A stretch of 64,000 bases of DNA from Nymphaea colorata. Lineage: Eukaryota; Streptophyta; Magnoliopsida; Nymphaeales; Nymphaeaceae. The notes beneath the pieces were generated by a model, which was given only the letters and a program-made list of their open reading frames with translations, searched no databases and had not been told where the DNA came from. Where the stretch lies: the NCBI RefSeq assembly GCF_008831285.2, contig NC_045147.1, positions 19,532,581 to 19,596,580 of the forward strand, written 5' to 3'. This document shows, piece after piece, positions 10,645-31,900 of the stretch (positions are counted from its first letter, which is position 1; each line of letters starts with the position of its first letter). Both the position numbers and the translations under genes were made by a program.

Positions 10645-13600
10645 ATGGAGGAGAAAGCTGCTGCTCTTCATACCGTGGAGAGTGCAGTTCAGGCACTAGG
10701 GAGGGGTTTTGACGTCACGTTCGACAGCAGGTTGCTGTATTGCAAGGGGCTTGCTGAGTCCAGAATAGTCGAGGTCGACGAGGAGCACACAAGGGATTTT
10801 GTGGCTTTTGATGATCTAGTGGTCGCTAATGTCTCCAGGGATATCAGGAGGGTCCAGGTGAAGAGTCGCAGAGAGGCATCAGGAATTCGTAGTTTTCACG
10901 AGGTATCATCTCCACGATTTTTGTTTGTTTGCTTCTTAGTGAATCATTTTTCCCATATTCGCAATTGAAAACGGAGGAAATTTCAAGTTTTATGCGTGTA
11001 TCAATTATGTTGTTATGTGTGGGGGCTTTGATATGCTTGTATTCTACGTTTCTGTTGGCAAGGTTTGATATATCGATGATTGGTGCTTGGACAATATTGA
11101 ATTATTATGCTGGTTACAATATCTAAGTTGTTGAGTAAATGCATTATCACTGATTTGATCACTCATTTGATAACATTAATATCTTCCTTTTTCTTTTTGA
11201 GTAAGTGGGGATGATATCAAATCATAAACGCTTATTTATATGTGTCATTTTACCACTTATACATGTAGAAATAATGCATTGATGCGGTAGTCCGGCAAAA
11301 TAGCTTGTTATTTGTGAGGGTCGTGATGGTTGGTGTAACGGCGGATTGTGGTCCAGAACACAATATAGTATCCAAAAAATGATAAGAGAATCCTGTTTCT
11401 TCCTTCAAGATAATGCGATTACTTGCCGAATGACATGCTCCTATTTTACAGGTCCGACTAATTGCTGCACATGTCAATAGGATGAGCCTGGAAAGAGTAG
11501 TTTCCATTTTTGGTGGTCTAGCTTTACCTGAGATTCGTTGGTTAGAACTGTATGGCATTGAGTAGTCTCGATTTCTTATTCAGTTCTAAGACTACCTATT
11601 GGACCAGTACGTTTTGATCCACAGGCATACTGACACCCATACATATAACATATAGATGCATACACACGTATGTGCATACATTGTGTGTGTATGTAGATTC
11701 ATTCTCTAATTGTGAAATTCCCATACATCTTCATATCTCCCTCTAAAAGACTAAAACTTTACTAAATTCGTATACGGAGGTTTGTTTCAAGGCTTATTCG
11801 TTCTTAGGATAAACAGATAAGAGTTGTAACATGTTTTTATTTCCTTGTATTACTGATAAAGATTTTATTCCTGGTGGTGGAGGGTATGTTTTCTTATATG
11901 TTAAGAATTGTCAGTGCGTATGCATACTGAACCAGCAGTGTTTAGTCCTAACTCCTAAGTGCACAGATTGTGGTATTAGCACTGAACTGCTGTCCTAAGT
12001 CGGAGAGATTTTAAGTTTGGGCATCTTACAATAGTTTATCATATTGACTTTCTATATAAACGGGCTGATATTATGTAGCTGCATGACAAAATCTCAGATG
12101 GCTGAGTATTTCAATATCAAGGCATGTCTTTCCGGAAGTGTCCCTCTAGGAAACTTCAATTCTGCTTTCAATTTCACTGGATTGAGGCACATTGATTCAG
12201 CTGCTACAAAGTCCCTTGCTGTTGATGGATTCTATGTACCCTTGGTCAAGGTTGAGTTAATGAAGCTTCCTTTGGTATTAAGGGAGAATGTGAGACATGC
12301 TGTTCCATGTTCATGGGATCCAATGGCTTTAGCTAGGTGAGTTCCATTTCTGCATGTTTTATCTTCAAGAGGAGCTTGATACTGAAACCAATATTTAAAT
12401 GATTGCTTGGTGTTTCAGCTTCATTGAGAACTTTGGTACACACGTCATTACATCTGTGACAATTGGAGGTAGAGATGTAATATATGTCAAGCAGCACAAT
12501 ACCTCTTCTTTATCAGCTGCAGCAATTAAACATTATGTTCAGGACATTGGGGATCAAAGATTCTCTGATACAGATGCCCAAACAAGTAGAACTCCAGTGA
12601 AATTCAAAGACAAGGCTGGTGTTGCTTTTCCTTCTCTTGGGAAAGATATTTATAATTCATGTTCTGTTCAATTTGGTGCTTGTATGTGTTTTCTTATATT
12701 ACTTATTGCTGTAAGTTGCAGGCTGGAGACTCTTTCGCATTTAACAGCCAAGGTGTACATCCTCAACCTTCAATTCCTCCATTTCTAACTGGGAAAGAAG
12801 TAAGTGTTGCTACTTCTAAATGTATGTAAGTGAAAAATGAATTCAATTTGTTAACAAAAATATAGTTCATGGTTCTTCCTAAGGACCACATGATGATGCC
12901 ACACAGGGAAATATGTGAACTAAATTGATATGTTAAGAACTTGTTCATGCTGTAGCTACTGGGTGATATTTGTGCAGCAAATAAACTTGGATTGGCAGAA
13001 AAATATGGTTTCCACTGGAATGTAGAGACCATTTTCTAAATTAAAATGCATGAACACAAGGTGTCAATCATTCTTCCATCCGCTTTCACTGTTCTTGTAG
13101 GCATATGATACAAGATATTTTTTGTGTCTTTGCTTTTACCTTGGAGGAGATAAAATTTTGCATGTGTGACGTGGAACTTGTAGGTCAACAAAGAGGACCA
13201 CGATTGCTGGGGACATGGTCTAAGATAATCCATTAACCTTGTCAATTGTTGTATCAAAACAATGAGAACATAAGGGCGAAACCTCCAGGAAAACTAGGTA
13301 TATGGAGTACAATTGTAGAAAGTTGAAACAGGGTAAGTAGGTTACTGGTATAGTTTCTGTGATGCACAATAGCCCTCAATTATGGACTTATACTGCAGCG
13401 ATAACTGGTGCAACTAGAAATTTCAAATATACCTCAAGATACAACATCTCCCTTGACTTTCACTTGGTTGTTTTGGGCCTTTGGCAGTCTTTTCCCTTTG
13501 TTTGATGAATCACCTTTTAATAAAAAAACAGTTGCAAGTTATTAAAGCAACTTAAAGCTGCATGTCAGATGCTTGAATGCGTATGTTGCCCTTTTGTTGT

Positions 13601-15589
13601 TGCTTTTGAGACTACAAACCTGTTATTAAGGCCTGAATCCTGCATAGAATGGAAACAAGTACCATGCAGAGAAGCTGCAGCCTTACTGGACAAAAGCCAG
13701 GACCTGATTAAGTGGAGAAGATGTTCAAATTTGAAGTGCACCCAAACTATATCAACAGAAAATTGCATGAATATTTCTCACATATTTTTTCATTCAGTTG
13801 ATAGCTTGAACAATTGTTATGTTTTTAGCAGCAACTAACCAAATGATTCTATAACCAGCCCATGTTCACCTGCTTTTTTCCTCTTTTGCATTATTTTGTG
13901 CATCATATTTCCAATCTGACAACTGTTATTGCAACCTGCCCATCCAGACTTACATAATCAGTACTGCAGTTTCTGGTGTTATAGAGCATAGGTGACACAT
14001 TCATGTAGCTTTGAACTTGTTGAAATGCTGTTGTTCTGCAGGATGTTACCGTGATTTTGAGGAGAAGAGGAGGAGACGATCTGATTCAGAGCCATACTCA
14101 TTGGGCAAAAACTGTTCGATTTGCTCCTGATGTTGTTGACATGACCTTCTGTCCGATCAGCTCTCTACTTGATGGTATTCCTGGAAAGGATCACCTTGTT
14201 CGGGCCATTGACCTTTACCTAGAAAGTGAGAAGCATCGCCTGCACCATCCAGCAGCTGCTACCATTTTATACAATGAATTAGTTGCATAATGTTCTCTTT
14301 AACAAACAATTGCAGATAAACCTCCGATTGAGGAATTGCGATACTTCTTAGAGTTCCAGATTCCTCGTGTATGGGCGCCCAACAGGGACCACCTTCCTGG
14401 TCCTCAAAGAAAGGGGCCTGTGTGCCCCTCTCTGCAGTTTAGCTTGATGGGTCCTAAGCTTTATGTTAGCCCGGAACAGGTAATCTGTCACTCACTCTTT
14501 CTCAATATACACACACAATTCAACCTTGACGTTTGTCAAGATTTATCTGGAATAAAAATGACAATATAATAACCAGAGCATCAACGGTCTGGCAGTTGAT
14601 GAATTGAAAAACACGACCTAGCTATCCCATAGCTCAAGGGTTCTGATTTCACAGAATGGTAAACTACTTACACATTTTACTAGAGTCTGACATGATCAAA
14701 GGCTTTTTTAGACTTTTAATTTCTTGTAGATTATTCAAAATCTAACAAAAAAACTCCTTCATATTGAAATTCATTCATCGCCTCTTCTCTTCTAAATCCT
14801 GTGTTCCCTTGTTTCATTTGGCCTAAAGCTGGTTGTGTTATTTTGTGCTAAATCTGCTTAGAGAAGTGATCACTTTTACTTGCATTTTTTGAGAGTAGAG
14901 CATGCTCTCCAATTTACTTTCACCTCAACTAAACAAAGCCACATGCAAAAGAGCAGGTATCAGTTGGTAGGAAGCCTGTTACAGGTCTTCGTCTGTGCCT
15001 AGAAGGGAGCAAGCAAAAGCGACTGTGTGTTCATCTCCAACACTTGGCAACATTGCCGAAGATCCTCCAACCGTACTGGGACATCCATGTGGCCATTGGA
15101 CCGCCTAGGTGGCATGGAGCTGAAGAACAAGATACTAGATGGTTTGAGCCAGTGAAATGGAAGAATTTTTCTAATGTCAGCACTGCCCCAATTGAGTTGA
15201 ACGAATCCTACACTGCTGAACCTTCGGGTGCTTACATAGTTACTGGTGCTCAGCTTGGAGTCTGGGATTTTGGGAATAGAAATGTTTTGCATTTGAAACT
15301 TTTATATTCCAAGGTCCCTGGTTGCACTATCAAGAGATCTGTTTGGGACCATACTCCAAGTCAAAATGATATTGCAAGAACACAAGCGGTTGAAGCTTCA
15401 AAAACCAGTGACTCAAGCTCTGGAATGACGACAGCACAGGCGGCGAAACTGATGAAAATTGTGGACATGTCTGAAATGAGCAAAGGTCCACAGGATCCAC
15501 CGGGCCACTGGTTGGTTACAGGTGCTAAATTAGGTGTAGAGAAAGGGAAGATTGTTTTGCGAGTAAAATACTCTCTATTGAACTTTTGA
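10645..15589 (+). CDS. MACPF-domain protein, CAD1/NSL1-type
   Basis: Coding exons read 10645-10902, 12098-12336, 12419-12614, 12722-12799, 14042-14225, 14316-14479 and 14957-15589, giving 583 aa, within the usual size of this plant family. The MACPF fold occupies roughly residues 1-330. The signature FIENFGTH lies at 167-174, followed by VTIGGRDVIYVKQ. Later family blocks are KEDVTVILRRRGGDDL (about 256-271), RVWAPNRDHLPGP, LCLEGSKQKRLCVHLQHL and, near the C-terminus, PGCTIKRSVWDHTP. The chosen start is the first ATG, with MEEKAAALHTVESAVQALGRG as in relatives. Phases agree at every junction, but the third intron (about 12615-12721) lacks a clean GT donor and its edges may shift by a few bases. 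Arabidopsis members (CAD1, NSL1) restrain salicylate-dependent cell death; the same role here is inferred from family only. It lacks a signal peptide. Confidence 0.93.
10903..12097 (+). other. MACPF intron 1
   Basis: 1.2-kb phase-0 intron from GAG/GTATCA to TCTCAG/ATG. The join gives FHE-MAEYFN, the family's usual sequence at this position. AT-rich; no element recognised. Confidence 0.8.
12800..14041 (+). other. MACPF intron 4
   Basis: 1.24-kb phase-0 intron from AAAGAA/GTAAGT to CTGCAG/GATGTT, joining TGKE to DVTVI. Short open frames inside carry no family signal. Confidence 0.8.
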
Positions 15590-22230: not shown

Positions 22231-25200
22231 TCAATGGCCTCTCCCAGAGAGCCACTTCCCAGTAAAACCCCATCCGCCAGATGATTTGTTATGCCTTGGC
22301 TCCTGAAAGCCAATGTGTTCAACTGCTCCCACAGTCTTGAACAGCCTTAGCTTCCTCACTTCCTCCACCAACGACCTGTGAGAAAGCTGGCTCCGAAAAT
22401 CGATCGACGAGTTCATCTTCGACAACCGGCGATTGCCGAAGGATGACACGTCGGTGCCAGGACTAACCATCGGACCTGAAGGCATGGCACTGTTGCGTTT
22501 ATCAATGCGCTGCTGCATATCCATGCCTGCCGGACAGAACCTTGATGATTTATTCGTCCGGCCATGTCCGGGCTGCTCATGGCTCCACTGTGGATGGACA
22601 TGCCTTAATCCGCCAAACTCTCCTGCCCCAGTGCACATGTCAGCATTGTCATTGTCACTAGAGGCATGGGTCCAGCTAGAGTAATGGCCAGAGAAAGAGG
22701 AGCCTTGGGAGCTCTTATCATCATAATCATCATCATCATAATCATTGCATGATTCATCTGCGTGGATGATAAACATCATCACTGATAAATTTGTCATGTC
22801 ATCCAAGCGAACCATGTACAGTAACAAAAAGCCCCCATGGACAACTTAATGTCTCAAGAGTTGAAACTCTGAGAGGTCATCATCATTGTACATAGCATCC
22901 GCATACTTCGATGACAAACTGGCAGATCAAAATCATCACCATGATCGTATGCAGATGTCACATTGCAATGATGGTTGACAACTATGGTTCTATACATCAG
23001 ATTCTTTTAATGCTCTATGTTGGCTGGGCAAGACTCATAGCCGCATCCACTATAATCATGTGCCACTAACATCATCAATATTCATGTATAGATGCACACC
23101 AGACAGATAGCTGGAGGCTATATGCATCAAGGAATAGCATCTTTATGCAGCATGAGGCCTCATGAGTAGATGCAGTATCATGTTTGATACCCGTTTCATC
23201 GACAAATACATGTAGGGATGTAGATGGTTCGGATTAGATAGTCGAATAGATTAAAAAACGGACACGGTAAAGAAACCAAAATCTTGAGACCATATCCAAC
23301 CATTTACATCCCTTAATGCACGAGAACAATGGCTTTGGCACTACCATCTATAGTTTTACTACGTGCTAGACTTGAACACAAGCAAGAACCATACCTCGAA
23401 GCCAATCCATTAAAGCTTTATCATCTTTGTCGGATGGTTGATGTCCCTTAAGAAAAACATCCCTTGGCAGTTGATCAAAAAAAATTCTTTGGCCAGCTCG
23501 GAGATCAGATAAAGAAGGTGAATCACAATCAAGATCAATGGCTGAGTCTTCGTCTTCCAAGTTGAAGCTGTCATGGTCTCCGACAGGCAGATCATCTTTC
23601 CAGTCAGGCACTAATGCAGAGATCTCAGTCTCAATAGCTTGTGCTATGTCGGAAGCTTCCCGGTCTGAGATCTCGAGCTCTTTAACCATTTCCTCGGCCA
23701 CCTCCATGGGTGTGTCCTTGACTATGTCAAAAGGAAACGACACATTTCTTATGACACCTGCACCCATGTCGAGTCCAACAAAAAAACTGCATTAGTCACT
23801 ACTGTCAATCGCTTCAATAATTCAGCAAGCATTTAGACTGCCACATTATCGGTTTTTATAAATTTATGCTCTAAAGTTCTGCTTTATTTTATTTCATCAA
23901 AAGGGAAGTGGAAAACAAACGAGAACTGAGACTCGACCAGAAGGGCGAATTTGGTTGCTTCTTACCGTCTTTATCAGCAATCTGGACCTTGAGAAAAATG
24001 GTGTCATCATCAGGATTCAATTTTCCCGTGATGGTCATATCGGTGGTTGCCCGGTTCGGGCGGTGAGCTTTGGCCGTAGGCGATATGGGACTAATTGCGG
24101 ATTTGCCAGGCACAGGGGTGGGTGCGGAGCGTGGGCTCGCAACTGAGGGTTTGGCTGAACTGGGAGGCCGGACCGGCGAATACTCCGGAACATCCTCGTC
24201 ATCATGGAAGAGAAAAGGATCCAGCAGCAGCTCTTCTGCTGGCACCCTGTTGGGCGCACTTTCCAGGCACCTCTCCACGAACCTTCGAGCCTCGGGATCC
24301 TTTATACGATAGAACGCCTCTGGTTTCTTCCCCTACATGAGCACAAGACTGTCCTGGTCAGGCGCTAGTTTACAGTTTACATCTTCGTCTCTGCATTTAA
24401 GTGCTACCTGAGAAATTTCATGCTTCTTCCCTTTTCTGCCTATTGGCTATGAAAAACTTTCAGAAAGATTATGATATTTAGCAAGCATGCAGGTATATAC
24501 TATATATAACTGTGGCGAACATACCAAACCAAGTAGGGGTTTTGGATTTTGATTATTACCGAGGTGACCTTCTTGTAGATCTGGGCAGGGTTGTGACACT
24601 CGCTATAAGGGTAATCAGCAGTGAGCATCTCCAACACGCACATGCCGAACGAGTAAATGTCCACCAACTCATTGTATTCTTCTTCGTAGAGTTCCGGCGC
24701 CATGAATTCCGGCGTACCTTAACAAACAATAGCGCCATCAGCACAGTGTCTACCAGTTCTATTCTAACAGGCACGCTGCGACGCTGTCCTCCATGTAATT
24801 CCCCAACGAAGAACATCAGAAGACAATGTAAGAGCGCGAGAGCGAGAGCGAGAGCGAGAGATAGACCTATGACACTGTGAGCGGCATGTGATTGGTGAAG
24901 GATGGCAGCGAGGCCTAAATCGCCGATCTTGACTTCGCCCAGATGGCCGTTCACGAAGATGTTGTCACACTTGAGGTCCCTGTGGATGACGGGAGGGTCG
25001 TGGCTGTGCAGGTAGACCAGCCCCCTCAGTATCTGCCTGCACCAGTTCTTTATCGCCCGTATGTCCACCCGCCGGTACTTCTGCCGATACCTGATCACCC
25101 CCCACAAACGCACGCACCCACCCCGCACCCAAACTCTCATGAGACGTCATAATCCATGTACAAATCATCATCATGTTAGCATGCAAACATTCATCCCCAT

Positions 25201-26106
25201 ATCAAATAATATTTCTTCATCTTTACTTCCCATTCCATCAATTTATTTTGATGTGTAAGAATCAAGCTCAAGAAAGCCATGCATATCGTAGCACATGCGT
25301 ATATGTGTGGTATTAGTATCTTAAAAATTCACATTGAACAATTTAAGATCAAAGGGGAAATGGATAAGGATATATAAGCTTTCTAATGACATAATTATCG
25401 AGGGGAGAACTTAGGAACCCATCCTTCTTTGGCACTCATACTATTAGGCAGGTTAGTCAGTGGGTGTCGGCATCATGCAACTAAAGGAAGCAAGTTGACA
25501 AGATACTGTTGCTTTCATTTCAATATTGGGAGGCTTCAATTGGGCGTCCCATCTTCCTTCATTTTAAGCAGGGTTGGGACGTTCACGTGGGTAGACGACG
25601 AATGGTTGGTTAAGTCACCATCCATGGCTGCTTGGTCGGTCTCATCCCACTAGGCCCTGTGGCCCCCATGCACCACTCGAGAATATGCTTTCTCTGTCGC
25701 CCATACATGTACAAAAGCCTATGTTCTTGGCTTTCTCTTAATCCGTCGTGTCGTCGTTATTTCGATGTTAAGATGAGCGACCAAGAAGAGACAAATTCCG
25801 GGGTTTTCATCATTAAGTTCCGGGACAAATTGATAGTTCAGGTTCCACAATTGGAGCCTGTAATTCAATTATTATCGGAAAGTGCAGATAATAATTATAT
25901 GTACCACTTCCTCATCGATCGGAAGCAACCTCAAAGGCTGAAACCAAATCTTACTACGCATAATTTACTTTTCTTGTCTTTATACAAGCAAGCTGAGGTT
26001 AAGCACAAGTTTAACAATACACGTGACTAGTCATGAGGGAACGGAAACTCTGGTTGCCAAGATCAAAAGGTTTTGTCTTTACGTAAATTGCATTTATGTA
26101 AAGCAG

Positions 26107-26158
<52 letters not shown>

Positions 26159-27094
26159 CAGAACGGTTTTAAAACTTTTGAAATAGTTTTGTTGTCATTA
26201 AGATGGAAAAAGAAAAAAAATTTGTCGCCTGCTTCTATTTGGATAGTCTGGGGAATGAAGCACTACTGATCTTCATAAACATGAACCTCAGGTATATATA
26301 TATATAACAGAAAAACTTTTGAAATAGTTTTGTTGTCTTTACGATGGAAAAAGAAAAAAAAAATTGTCGCCTGCTTCTATTTGGATGGTCTGGGGAATGA
26401 AGAACTGTTGATCTTCCCTAACAAACATGAACCTCAGGTACATTGACTTTGGTATACAGGCCTGTCTACGTAGGCAAAAAAGACCTTTCCAAGAATACTG
26501 TCTTTTCTCAACTTAATATATATGCACTTCATCGGGGTTTTTTTTTTTGTTAAAAACATTTCTTTTTTTTTTTTCAAAATGTCTCTTCAAAGTGACGACT
26601 GACGGCTTTTCTCATGCGGACTCTTTCTCTGTGGGCGATAATCTTCTATATCGCCAAAAAATTAGAAAAGATAACCCCATGACGTCATTTCCCCGTTATT
26701 TCCCAAGATTCGAAATGAGTTAGATTACCATCACGCCTTTAGTTCTCCTCCTCTTTTTTTCTTTTCCACCCTCTCTACGTCGTCTACCTTGATCAGTGAA
26801 CAGATAATCTTTTATGCTGCTTTTAACAGAATAAACATAAGAACAGCTAAATATTCATGATAATCTATTTTAAATATGTTATTTCGCTATTATATTTGAT
26901 TTTAATGACATCAATACTAAAAATCCTGATTCTCCGGTCCATTATTCTACGACATCCTAGCCGCATCTTCCTGACAAATTTAGATCGTCTAGGCAATAAA
27001 AGCGAGAAGGCACATGGCGCCACAGCAGCCAAATTCATCAACCAAGTGTATGAATTTTCTCGAAAAGGGCCAATCGAAAATCACATGCAGTCAT

Positions 27095-27138
<44 letters not shown>

Positions 27139-28284
27139 ATAAAGAAAGGACTGTTCTTAGCCTTACCCCCTGAGAGTACCGGATGTAAACATCTCTGTGA
27201 TGAAGTTGATGGTGCGGGAGGTGGTATCGATCCACGACGCGTAGAACTTGATGAGAGATTCGTGTTGGAGGGTGCTAAGTAGGTGCACCTCGGAGTAGAG
27301 CCGCTGAAGCTCTTCCGGCGACCTGAGAGCGTCCGTCAGTCTCACTTGATTCCATGCCACCTCCATTCCCGTGGCCTCGTCGAACGCCCTGTAACTGTTT
27401 GTTTTTTCCAATTGTCATAAATTTTTCCGGCAGACAAAGAGAAAAAGGCGGGATCTTAGTAACACAAAAGAGTAGATTTTTCGCCGGAGAACTTCAAGAA
27501 GCTCGCCAGAAATTTCAGGGAATAAAGAAACGGAAACGCTTACACAGTCTTGGTCGCGCCTTTGCCGAGAACATCGTTGAACTGCAGTGAATTAAAAAAT
27601 GTAATTGAATAACCAAAATAACGTTAACCATGCAAACTACAACATTGGAAAAATCACGCGCAGAGTTCGTGTTCATGTCTTTTCGGGAACCGTCAAAGGA
27701 TTTTATTGTCCTTCGGGGGCTGATTATTGCGCTCCAATGCCAGTTGACTTTCCTTCTCAACAGAAAGGAGTCTCAGTTTCCACCGATCTCCCGCTCAGGG
27801 GTATTATCGGTATAAAAAAGAACGGAGCCCAATAATTTCCTTTGGGCGAATGACAATAATGCCCCCATCTTTCTGTAGAGAGGGAAGTGGAGCGAAGAAA
27901 ACAATTTGCGAATTGGCCAAAAAGCCCCTCGCTCTACACTACGTCATCAGAAATTGACGCAATTACCCTTTAAATCCCGACAACTAGTTTTATTTTGTAA
28001 GATGATGGCAAAAAGAAAAAGAAGAGAACGCATGGTCTTAAGGGCACGGAAATTTAACGAATATTTAATTTAACGAATATTTAATTTAACGAGAAATTAA
28101 CAGGGGCAGTCCCTGTAAAGTTTTTTGTTTACAAAAAACGAACCAAGGGCATTTTTGTCATTGAAGGATAGAACGTGGAACTTACCCGCCCGTACCGACC
28201 CGTGGGGTCCGTCTCGGCGTAGCTAAGATCACCGCCACCGCCGCCTCCGGCACCACCGTCACAAAACCGCCTGGGGTTGAACAT
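22231..28284 (-). CDS. WNK: WNK (with-no-lysine) serine/threonine protein kinase
   Basis: Minus-strand exons, in order, are 28284-28186, 27581-27544, 27394-27167, 25090-24867, 24717-24560, 24332-23966, 23757-23395 and 22757-22231. They sum to 2004 nt, or 667 aa, with GT/AG borders and consistent phase. Kinase domain is about residues 30-285. The Gly-rich loop [12 protein letters not shown] carries the WNK lysine (K44). In strand 3, EVAWNQV has Asn61 where other kinases have the catalytic Lys, the WNK hallmark. HRDLKCDN is at 158-165 and DLG replaces DFG at 179-181. Activation-loop [12 protein letters not shown] follows, with Ser194 as the likely autophosphorylation site. An OSR1-C-like domain follows at about 355-430 ([14 protein letters not shown]). 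After an acidic stretch (DDDDYDD) comes the plant-WNK C-terminal block [29 protein letters not shown] suggests the AtWNK1/2/3/9 side of the family. Plant WNKs act in ion, osmotic and circadian signalling. Confidence 0.95.
24835..24861. repeat. (GCGAGA)n short tandem repeat at WNK intron 4 donor
   Basis: Four to five hexamer units lie within about 10 nt of the intron 4 splice donor (GTCTATCTCTCG on the minus strand). Confidence 0.85.
26155..26437. repeat. Direct tandem duplication of about 141 bp in WNK intron 3
   Basis: Both copies contain CTTTTGAAATAGTTTTGTTG, TTGTCGCCTGCTTCTATTTG and AACATGAACCTCAGGT in the same order, at an offset of 141-146 bp. They are joined by a short TA tract. Confidence 0.85.
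27098..27134. repeat. (TA)n microsatellite in WNK intron 3
   Basis: About 18 TA units beside the exon 3 donor of the WNK gene. Confidence 0.95.
28051..28092. repeat. Short tandem repeat in WNK intron 1
   Basis: AATTTAACGAATATTT occurs twice in tandem, with a partial third unit. Confidence 0.8.
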
Positions 28285-28930
28285 CGTGTTTCCACAGCGC
28301 GTCACCCGCCGGAGAAAATCAAGAATCGCCGGCAGCGAGCGAAAGCGAGAGGGGAGAACGAGAGATAGAGAGAGACGGTTAGAAAAAAGAGAGAAAGGGA
28401 AGAGGGGGAGGGAAGGTTAGCTTAATCGTTTTCCGGTGAGAGTTAAGGTAAGAAATAGCAGCAGCGGCAGGTGCTAGATTCGAGGTTTCCCCTCGTGGTT
28501 GTCGTAGGAGAAGAGGCCGAAGAAGAGCCAGAAGAGCCTTGTGTAGTGGACTCTTTGCATGATCGTCGCCAGCTCCACCACGCACCGCTGGAAGACGTAG
28601 TCGTTGATATACATCGCGAAATCAAATATGCGTCTCTATTTTTTTGGGCCGGAAGAAAGCGAGAAAGCCTGAACGGGATGTTCGCCTCCGCCTTCTCTCG
28701 TTCCTTTTTCTTCTGCGAAGACGAGAAGCGACGGCGAGGAGAAGGAGATCCGGTGATGGCGATCAATTAAGACCGGGCTCGAGAAGATCAGAGTCCCTGT
28801 ACTTGAAGAATCGACGGCCGGGTCGTTTCGTTACCATTTGCGACATGCGAGATCGTCTTGCGGTAGGATGCGGGACGGCCGGCGGCTTTGGGCTTCTGCA
28901 CGAGGAAGGAAGGCAAGTCTGAAATGGAAC
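28285..28930 (-). promoter_or_regulatory. WNK 5' leader and proximal promoter
   Basis: GC-rich DNA in AT-rich surroundings, with purine-rich tracts (28340-28415) close to the start codon and the 46-codon upstream ORF at 28614-28474. Longer open frames on both strands here overlap each other without domain signals and are probably leader composition effects. Confidence 0.5.
28474..28614 (-). CDS. Candidate upstream ORF (46 aa) in the WNK 5' leader
   Basis: On the minus strand, ATG at 28614 opens a 46-codon frame ending in TAG at 28474, 189 nt upstream of the WNK ATG. The peptide begins MYINDYVFQRCVVELATIMQ and contains a hydrophobic LFWLFFGLF near residues 27-35. Third codon positions are nearly all G or C through the first two thirds, as expected of selected coding sequence, whereas surrounding leader DNA has no such bias in this frame. 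I recognise no known peptide. Plants have conserved peptide uORFs that stall ribosomes and control the main ORF; this is a candidate, provided the transcript starts upstream of 28614. It could instead be a short exon spliced elsewhere. Confidence 0.5.
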   Translation of the reverse strand: MYINDYVFQRCVVELATIMQRVHYTRLFWLFFGLFSYDNHEGKPRI

Positions 28931-31900
28931 CGCAGCGAGGGACGGGGTGAGAAGAGGGCCGCTGATAAAGGGACGTGACAGATGCACAAAACTGCAGCGC
29001 CCTAGAAATTTTAATAAATTCAAAAAGAAAAATACACGAGAAATCCATTTGACGATTACGCCCCTTGACTTTGACTTTTGATTTTGGCGCGAAGGTGTGC
29101 CGCCCGGGCTTGGTCAAACCACGGCCCGGCTCGAGAGCTGGCAAAGTCAAATGCGAATTCCTTGTTCGTAGTCACTCTTGATAGAAATGAAATGATTATC
29201 GTGCGTATTTAATTTTCCTTTTATCTCAAATATGGCGCTTACTACTGTTTATGATCCAAAGACCTCACCATCAACAAATGAAATTGATATATTCAAATTT
29301 AGGTCATTTCAACGCAGAAAAAAACAAATGGAGCCGAAATAAATTCAATCAGGAGCCAAAATTCCAAAACCATGCGCTCGACCATTTATATCCCTAAAGT
29401 GAAACAAACCTTAGGAAAAATCATCAAAATTATAGTCATAGGAACAATTATGCATATCAACCGATTGGGTTTGGATCGAACCTAGCCTTCAAGTACCTTC
29501 TCTGTCGAAGTCGAGGGTCAGGTGGACCTGGTTTTGTGAAGAGGGTGCACCTTGGACTTTTTGACTCACATGAGGGTAATTTTGTCATTTAAAAATTCAC
29601 AAATTTTGTATATTGGTGGTAGTTGCTTTCTGCAGTTGAACAAAAAAAAATATGATATTAATATTTCCGACAAAAAATAAGAATGAAAGCCATAAAACAG
29701 AGCTATCTGTGGGCCCGGAGACATTTGATATCATTTTGGTTTTGGACTTTGCACGCGAGCACGACTCCCATCTCCATCTCCAATGAAAGATAAGTCAGCC
29801 GATGAAAATAACGGCAATTTAACGAGTGCACTAAATATCGACTTGAAAAACAAGGACAAAAAAAAAGAGAGAAATATTCGGGTCAGGTATGACGCGTTAT
29901 CTGAGTCCAGCTGGTTGGGTTTGACATGCTAAATTTAGATAGACAATCCAACATAATTTGATATAAAATTCCAGAGATAATTCTGATGTAACATGAAAAG
30001 GAAGTTAGTGGTCTATTTTGAAAAAAGAAACGGAAAGCCGAGTTTCTTGCAAATTGCAATGGTAGATCGGCTCACGTGGTTTTAAGGAGTTTTCTCTTGC
30101 TTTTAATGATTTAAATTGTCGTTTTATTTTTTTTTTAAGTAAAAAAAAAAAAGAAACAGACATATGTAGGGATCTGAGTAATGAGATCCCCGATCGGTTT
30201 TGGGTAATGAGATCCAATCCTTTTTAGAATATGAATTTGGATCTGAGTAGCATAAGGTCTGACGTTTAAACGAAATCAGATCTCAGTAACATATCTGCCT
30301 TGGAATTTGATACTGAATTCATATCCAGCTAGTAATCGGACCTAAATCTGTGTCATCAGCAGCTTGTATGATTGCCTACACTTTCCTTCATTTTTAAACA
30401 TGAAATGAGTGTAGTGGCCTACAAAAGACACCCATTAAACTATTCAAGCAACTTGCATAATCTTGGCAAAAAGTTGGCCCTCCAGAGAAAATTAAACAAT
30501 AAGTTTCTTTTTCAACATGCGGCGCGAAAAGCAATATTTTTTCTTGAAAACATTAAAGATGACAAGGCTGAGCCCGGATCTTGTTTAAAACATGGTTAAG
30601 CTAAGCTCAAGTTCATCAATTCTCGCGCTTAAAAGGAAAAGCAAAGCCCTTAAAGAACGGGAAACTATAAAAAAGAACTTGGCACCAAGAACTGCATCAA
30701 TTAATGGAAGAATCTTATCTTCTATGGCTCAAAATAAGCAGGTGCATGCCCTTCACATGCAGTTGCTTGCATTAATGGAGATTCACTTGCTTGCAGTGGA
30801 GATTGGCTTTCATTTCCTTCCAGTATTTTCCTAGATGTCTGTGTCCAAAGGCTGTACTTCGTGGGAGGCATGAAATGCTGGTGGAAAGTTCGCGCAGAGA
30901 AAAGGCATCATCAAATCTCCCTGTATCTAACAGTGTATCCCACTTGGGGCTCATCACGACAGGAGTGGAGTCAAATCTATGCAACTCTAGAACCACTTCT
31001 GCCAATAAGAAATTACTTGATTTTCAAGAAAAAAAGTTAAAATCTAAAAGAGAAACAGTACGTTTTCATGATCTTTCTTTTAAATCTTTTGCGATTCAAA
31101 AGTTCAACATTATCAATGATTTTCCAAAAAATCTTCCCCAGAAAGCAACTTCAGAAAAAAAAATATATGTGGTGCCGATTTTCTTTGTCAAAGATAATGC
31201 TGATAAACAACTTTTGTGACTGCTGTCAAGAAAATAAAGATTAACGTCTCCTTTAGATCTTTCTGGGGTTTTTCTAAAAGGACTTTGTCGTCATTGCTTA
31301 GATATACAACACTCAGCCTGGCCCCAAAAATTCGTTTTGTTTAATAAACAGTGAGTGAAGGACAAACCACACAAAGTGCTGCAGAAACACACACACCCAC
31401 ACACTGCATGCAGTCTCTGCACAAACATACAAACGGTCATGAAATATATAATAAGATAAACTTGATTTTTCTTGTACCAATCGGTTCTCAAGTTGAGAAA
31501 TTGTGTGTGTGTATATATATATATATAATGTATTAATTTATATTTGCTGATGGATGTTGAAGTCCTGGAGCCCTCCAAGATTATAGAAAATGCTTCCATA
31601 ATTCTGTAAGATTCCAAGGATGGATTTTTCTTTTTTCTTCGTATTGAGGTGCGTTTTCCCCCTTCCTCCATTGCCATCAGTTTCTTTACAATGATGGTGG
31701 TTTTAATATAAATCAATCCTTTCTGTCAACTTCCAACAACTTCACTTGGGCAATTCAATAATGGGTTGACAATGAAATGAACAATTTCCTTCTCATCTTT
31801 TTTGGTCCAACTGTAATCTATCATCATTTTCTCCGCACTATATTTGCAACTAGTCCTTGTAATTCTCGTGCTTTCTAATTTCTGCGGCCCCCATCCATTC

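Follow-up and report, generated by a model that had tools for sequence, protein, structure and literature searches.

We propose that the leader of a WNK kinase gene in Nymphaea colorata, located on the minus strand of the analysed window (the whole stretch of 64,000 nucleotides), contains a conserved peptide upstream open reading frame (CPuORF) of a WNK4/5-type gene. This uORF encodes 46 amino acids, most probably belongs to the published group HG16, and would lower the output of the kinase by stalling the ribosome through its nascent peptide; taken as a whole, we regard this interpretation as probable. The placement in HG16 is suggested by the type of the gene and the length of the peptide. 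If so, Nymphaea would probably join the plants in which a leader peptide holds down the dosage of a WNK kinase. The features discussed below are collected in Table 1.

Table 1. Features of the WNK gene and its leader within the window.
Feature	Position	Strand	Remarks
WNK kinase gene, WNK4/5-like, 667 aa, 8 coding exons	22231..28284	minus	model from DNA alone
WNK coding exons	28284-28186, 27581-27544, 27394-27167, 25090-24867, 24717-24560, 24332-23966, 23757-23395, 22757-22231	minus	
Spacer from uORF stop to WNK start	28285..28473	minus	189 nt, pyrimidine-rich, ATG-free
46-aa uORF, MYINDYVFQRCVVELATIMQRVHYTRLFWLFFGLFSYDNHEGKPRI, stop TAG	28474..28614	minus	G/C at 39 of 46 third positions; ranks highest in contrast among 229 ATG ORFs (40 codons or longer); excess only within the ORF
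27-aa ATG ORF upstream of the 46-aa uORF	28763..28846	minus	nested ATG at 28837

All seven introns of the gene model start with GT and end with AG, and the predicted protein matches the Pfam family Pkinase (1e-47). According to the PDB matches the kinase domain is of the WNK type: the first 249 residues match 17 PDB sequences at E <= 1e-30, of which 15 carry the name WNK1 or WNK3 (the best at 8.8e-79) and the remaining two, with values near 1e-31, are other kinases. A comparison of 492 of the 667 residues with prokaryotic genome contigs returned 132 pattern matches, none of which was confirmed, as expected for prokaryotes. With respect to the plant family, the protein scores 505 bits against AtWNK4, 399 against AtWNK8 and 351 against AtWNK11, all three taken as approximate reference sequences. 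In addition, a C-terminal stretch matches the reference AtWNK4 (58.7% over 46 aa, 1.9e-14) and gives no match to the reference AtWNK8 or AtWNK11. In a study of cotton, WNK4 and WNK5 are grouped together, separately from WNK8/10 (PMC10708218). Judged from these sequence scores, the gene appears to be WNK4/5-like, a label that we keep broad, as a comparison with AtWNK4, AtWNK8 and AtWNK11 does not separate WNK4 from WNK5. The third intron of the gene also carries an AT dinucleotide repeat (27099-27134), likely a microsatellite.

The uORF comprises 46 codons and a TAG, with its ATG at 28614 and the end of the stop codon at 28474. Its frame is closed on the 5' side by an in-frame TAG at 28638, eight codons upstream, and its ATG stands in the context TTCGCGATGTA, where position -3 is a purine. 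The distance from the ATG of the uORF to that of the kinase (28284-28282) is 330 nt, and both lie in the same frame. The spacer that separates the uORF from the kinase is 70.9% pyrimidine and 52.9% GC, and contains no ATG at all. Further upstream, the 27-aa ORF is possibly a second uORF, provided that the transcript starts above it; the same possibility, under the same proviso, applies to an ATG ORF of 86 aa on the minus strand (28788-29048), which also lies 5' of the 46-aa uORF. Re-reading of the DNA confirmed the position, strand and 46-aa sequence of the uORF as reported in the preliminary description, whose distance of 189 nt to the WNK start proved exact, and whose remark that the third codon positions are mostly G or C was right and pointed to a strong effect.

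The codon pattern carries most of the argument. In the uORF, G or C occupies 39 of the 46 third positions, whereas the counts at first and second positions are 22 and 13. For every ATG ORF in the window with 40 codons or more, a contrast was calculated by subtracting the average of GC1 and GC2 from GC3. Ranked in this way, the uORF stands first of 229 with a value of 0.467, followed at 0.328 and below by ORFs in or across WNK exons 7, 5 and 3, which take ranks 2-4; over the full WNK coding sequence, third-position GC amounts to only 0.59. Along the frame of the uORF, 15-codon windows contain 12-15 third-position G/C where they lie wholly inside it (seven windows), 8-12 where they straddle one of its ends (five windows), 5-7 where they lie wholly upstream (six windows) and 6-9 where they lie wholly downstream (eight windows). 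Four of the upstream windows show a first-position G/C excess (10-11 of 15), and the base composition there is therefore uneven across frames.

Could such an ORF have arisen by chance in a GC-rich leader? Its length is unremarkable and would agree with this explanation, since about half of the dinucleotide shuffles of the 676-nt leader (2572 of 5000) contain a closed ORF that starts with ATG and runs to 46 codons or more. However, none of the 5000 shuffles reaches the GC3 of the uORF (0.848; best shuffle 0.761) or its contrast (best shuffle 0.330), permuting the bases of the ORF itself 100000 times never attains its third-position count (38 of 45 with the start codon left aside), and the excess at third positions is confined to the uORF. 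We therefore regard a chance origin as extremely improbable. The codon pattern suggests, while falling short of proof, that the peptide is very probably translated and under selection.

The same strong coding signal might instead mark a piece of a longer WNK N-terminus, joined to the kinase by alternative splicing that removes the stop codon of the uORF. Fusions of this type are described as a known source of spurious CPuORFs (PMC7106846), and the two start codons share a frame at the distance given above. This explanation is nevertheless very unlikely, as none of the six GT sites within the uORF looks like a strong donor by eye (the nearest to one being GTGCGT at 28585), and the coding signal persists almost to the stop codon. 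Moreover, the one uORF-mORF fusion reported among Arabidopsis ESTs in PMC2075485 concerns a locus of group 17 and not a WNK gene.

When the genome from which the window was taken (407.8 Mb, 783 contigs) was searched with the peptide, the ORF itself was the sole match at E <= 1e-3, of two candidates scored; no close second copy was thus found there, and a diverged copy is possible. The peptide matched no Pfam family, and a tblastn search of plasmids at E <= 1 gave no match, which is unsurprising for a peptide from a plant. The literature text that was searched contained none of six fragments taken from it. Within the window there were no Rfam matches at gathering scores and no tRNAs. RNA structure was considered as a cause and rejected: the 330 nt from the start of the uORF to the start of the kinase fold with a z of -0.13, and 42 of 100 shuffles fold as well. 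Elsewhere in the window, on the plus strand, positions 12399-12788 are part of a gene with a MACPF (perforin-type) domain (Pfam, 5.8e-09); a nearby ORF on the same strand (15044-15589), without Pfam matches at E <= 0.001, may by eye belong to that gene.

Peptide uORFs of plant WNK genes have been in print since 2007, when Hayden and Jorgensen listed 26 conserved peptide uORF groups, two of which, HG16 and HG23, belong to WNK genes (PMC2075485). According to that paper, HG16 unites WNK5/ZIK1 of Arabidopsis (At3g51630) with rice LOC_Os11g02300, its members being listed as At3g51630 (Arabidopsis), AK071885 and AK067447 (rice) and AW693231 (Medicago). HG23 unites WNK8 (At5g41990) and ZIK10 (At1g64630); the table of PMC3426882 swaps the two names, giving At1g64630 as WNK8 and At5g41990 as WNK10. 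Mean pairwise Ka/Ks is given as 0.30 (yn00) and 0.11 (codeml) for the uORFs of HG16, and as 0.57 and 0.43, respectively, for those of HG23 (PMC2075485). The functional evidence, from PMC8509022 (2021), concerns CPuORF58, the HG23 uORF of WNK8, which represses WNK8, reportedly by ribosome stalling. Removal of its start codon, truncation or a frameshift raises reporter output, ribosome footprints peak upstream of its stop codon, and plants without its start codon are less sensitive to ABA. A double mutant of both WNK8 uORFs showed no further relief of repression, contrary to the expectation of the authors of that study.

By analogy with WNK8 and with CPuORFs in general, we infer that nascent-peptide stalling would lower the output of the Nymphaea kinase as well. 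Transcription would run through the uORF. Ribosomes scanning the WNK leader would translate the 46-aa uORF, and the nascent peptide, probably by its C-terminal part, would slow or stall the ribosome near the uORF stop. Fewer ribosomes would then get across the 189 nt to the WNK start, which would keep the output of WNK protein low until some condition relieved the stall.

It follows from the published work that the preliminary description, which knew of no described peptide uORF for WNK genes, had overlooked HG16 (WNK5) and HG23 (WNK8, ZIK10), and that its idea of novelty had been anticipated by the reporter, frameshift and ribosome-footprint evidence for CPuORF58. Its broader proposal, in which the uORF is translated, under selection and in control of the kinase, is partly supported, by the codon pattern, the position of the ORF and the precedent within the same family. 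While this kind of uORF is already known, the function of the WNK4/5 leader peptide is still worth testing: neither HG16 nor HG23 is named in the 2020 list of CPuORFs known to act in a sequence-dependent manner (PMC7106846), and thus we found no support in the literature consulted for stalling by HG16. It is also conceivable, albeit quite unlikely, that the peptide resembles none of HG16, HG16.2 and HG23, and that its hydrophobic LFWLFFGLF core brings about ribosome arrest or targeting of the nascent chain; the peptide would then respond to a signal related to osmotic conditions or ABA and in this way set the dosage of the kinase.

Among the known systems, HG16 (WNK5/ZIK1) is the best fit because the gene in the window is WNK4/5-like; the shared feature is a uORF that precedes a WNK4/5-type kinase in its 5' leader. 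The published length of HG16 peptides is 40-62 aa, conserved at the C-terminus (PMC2075485), and the 46 aa of the Nymphaea peptide fall within this range. As for orthology to WNK5, the comparison covered AtWNK4, AtWNK8 and AtWNK11, of which the reference AtWNK4 is the nearest. The ESUCA study (PMC7106846, 2020) describes a second uORF class, HG16.2, which belongs to the same orthologue group as HG16 and is dissimilar to it in sequence. As such a class exists in the same orthologue group, the Nymphaea uORF could be a translated peptide uORF of HG16.2, or of an uncatalogued class, instead of HG16. This we consider unlikely, the 46 aa agreeing with HG16, although length discriminates weakly. HG23 (CPuORF58 of WNK8, and ZIK10) differs more clearly: its uORFs precede mORFs of the WNK8/WNK10 type and encode 69-71 aa, with neither end conserved (PMC2075485), or 55-84 aa according to PMC8509022, whereas the Nymphaea uORF has 46 aa and its mORF is nearer to the reference WNK4 than to the reference WNK8. 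HG23 nonetheless shares with the Nymphaea leader a uORF placed before a plant WNK, and it provides the precedent for peptide-dependent repression.
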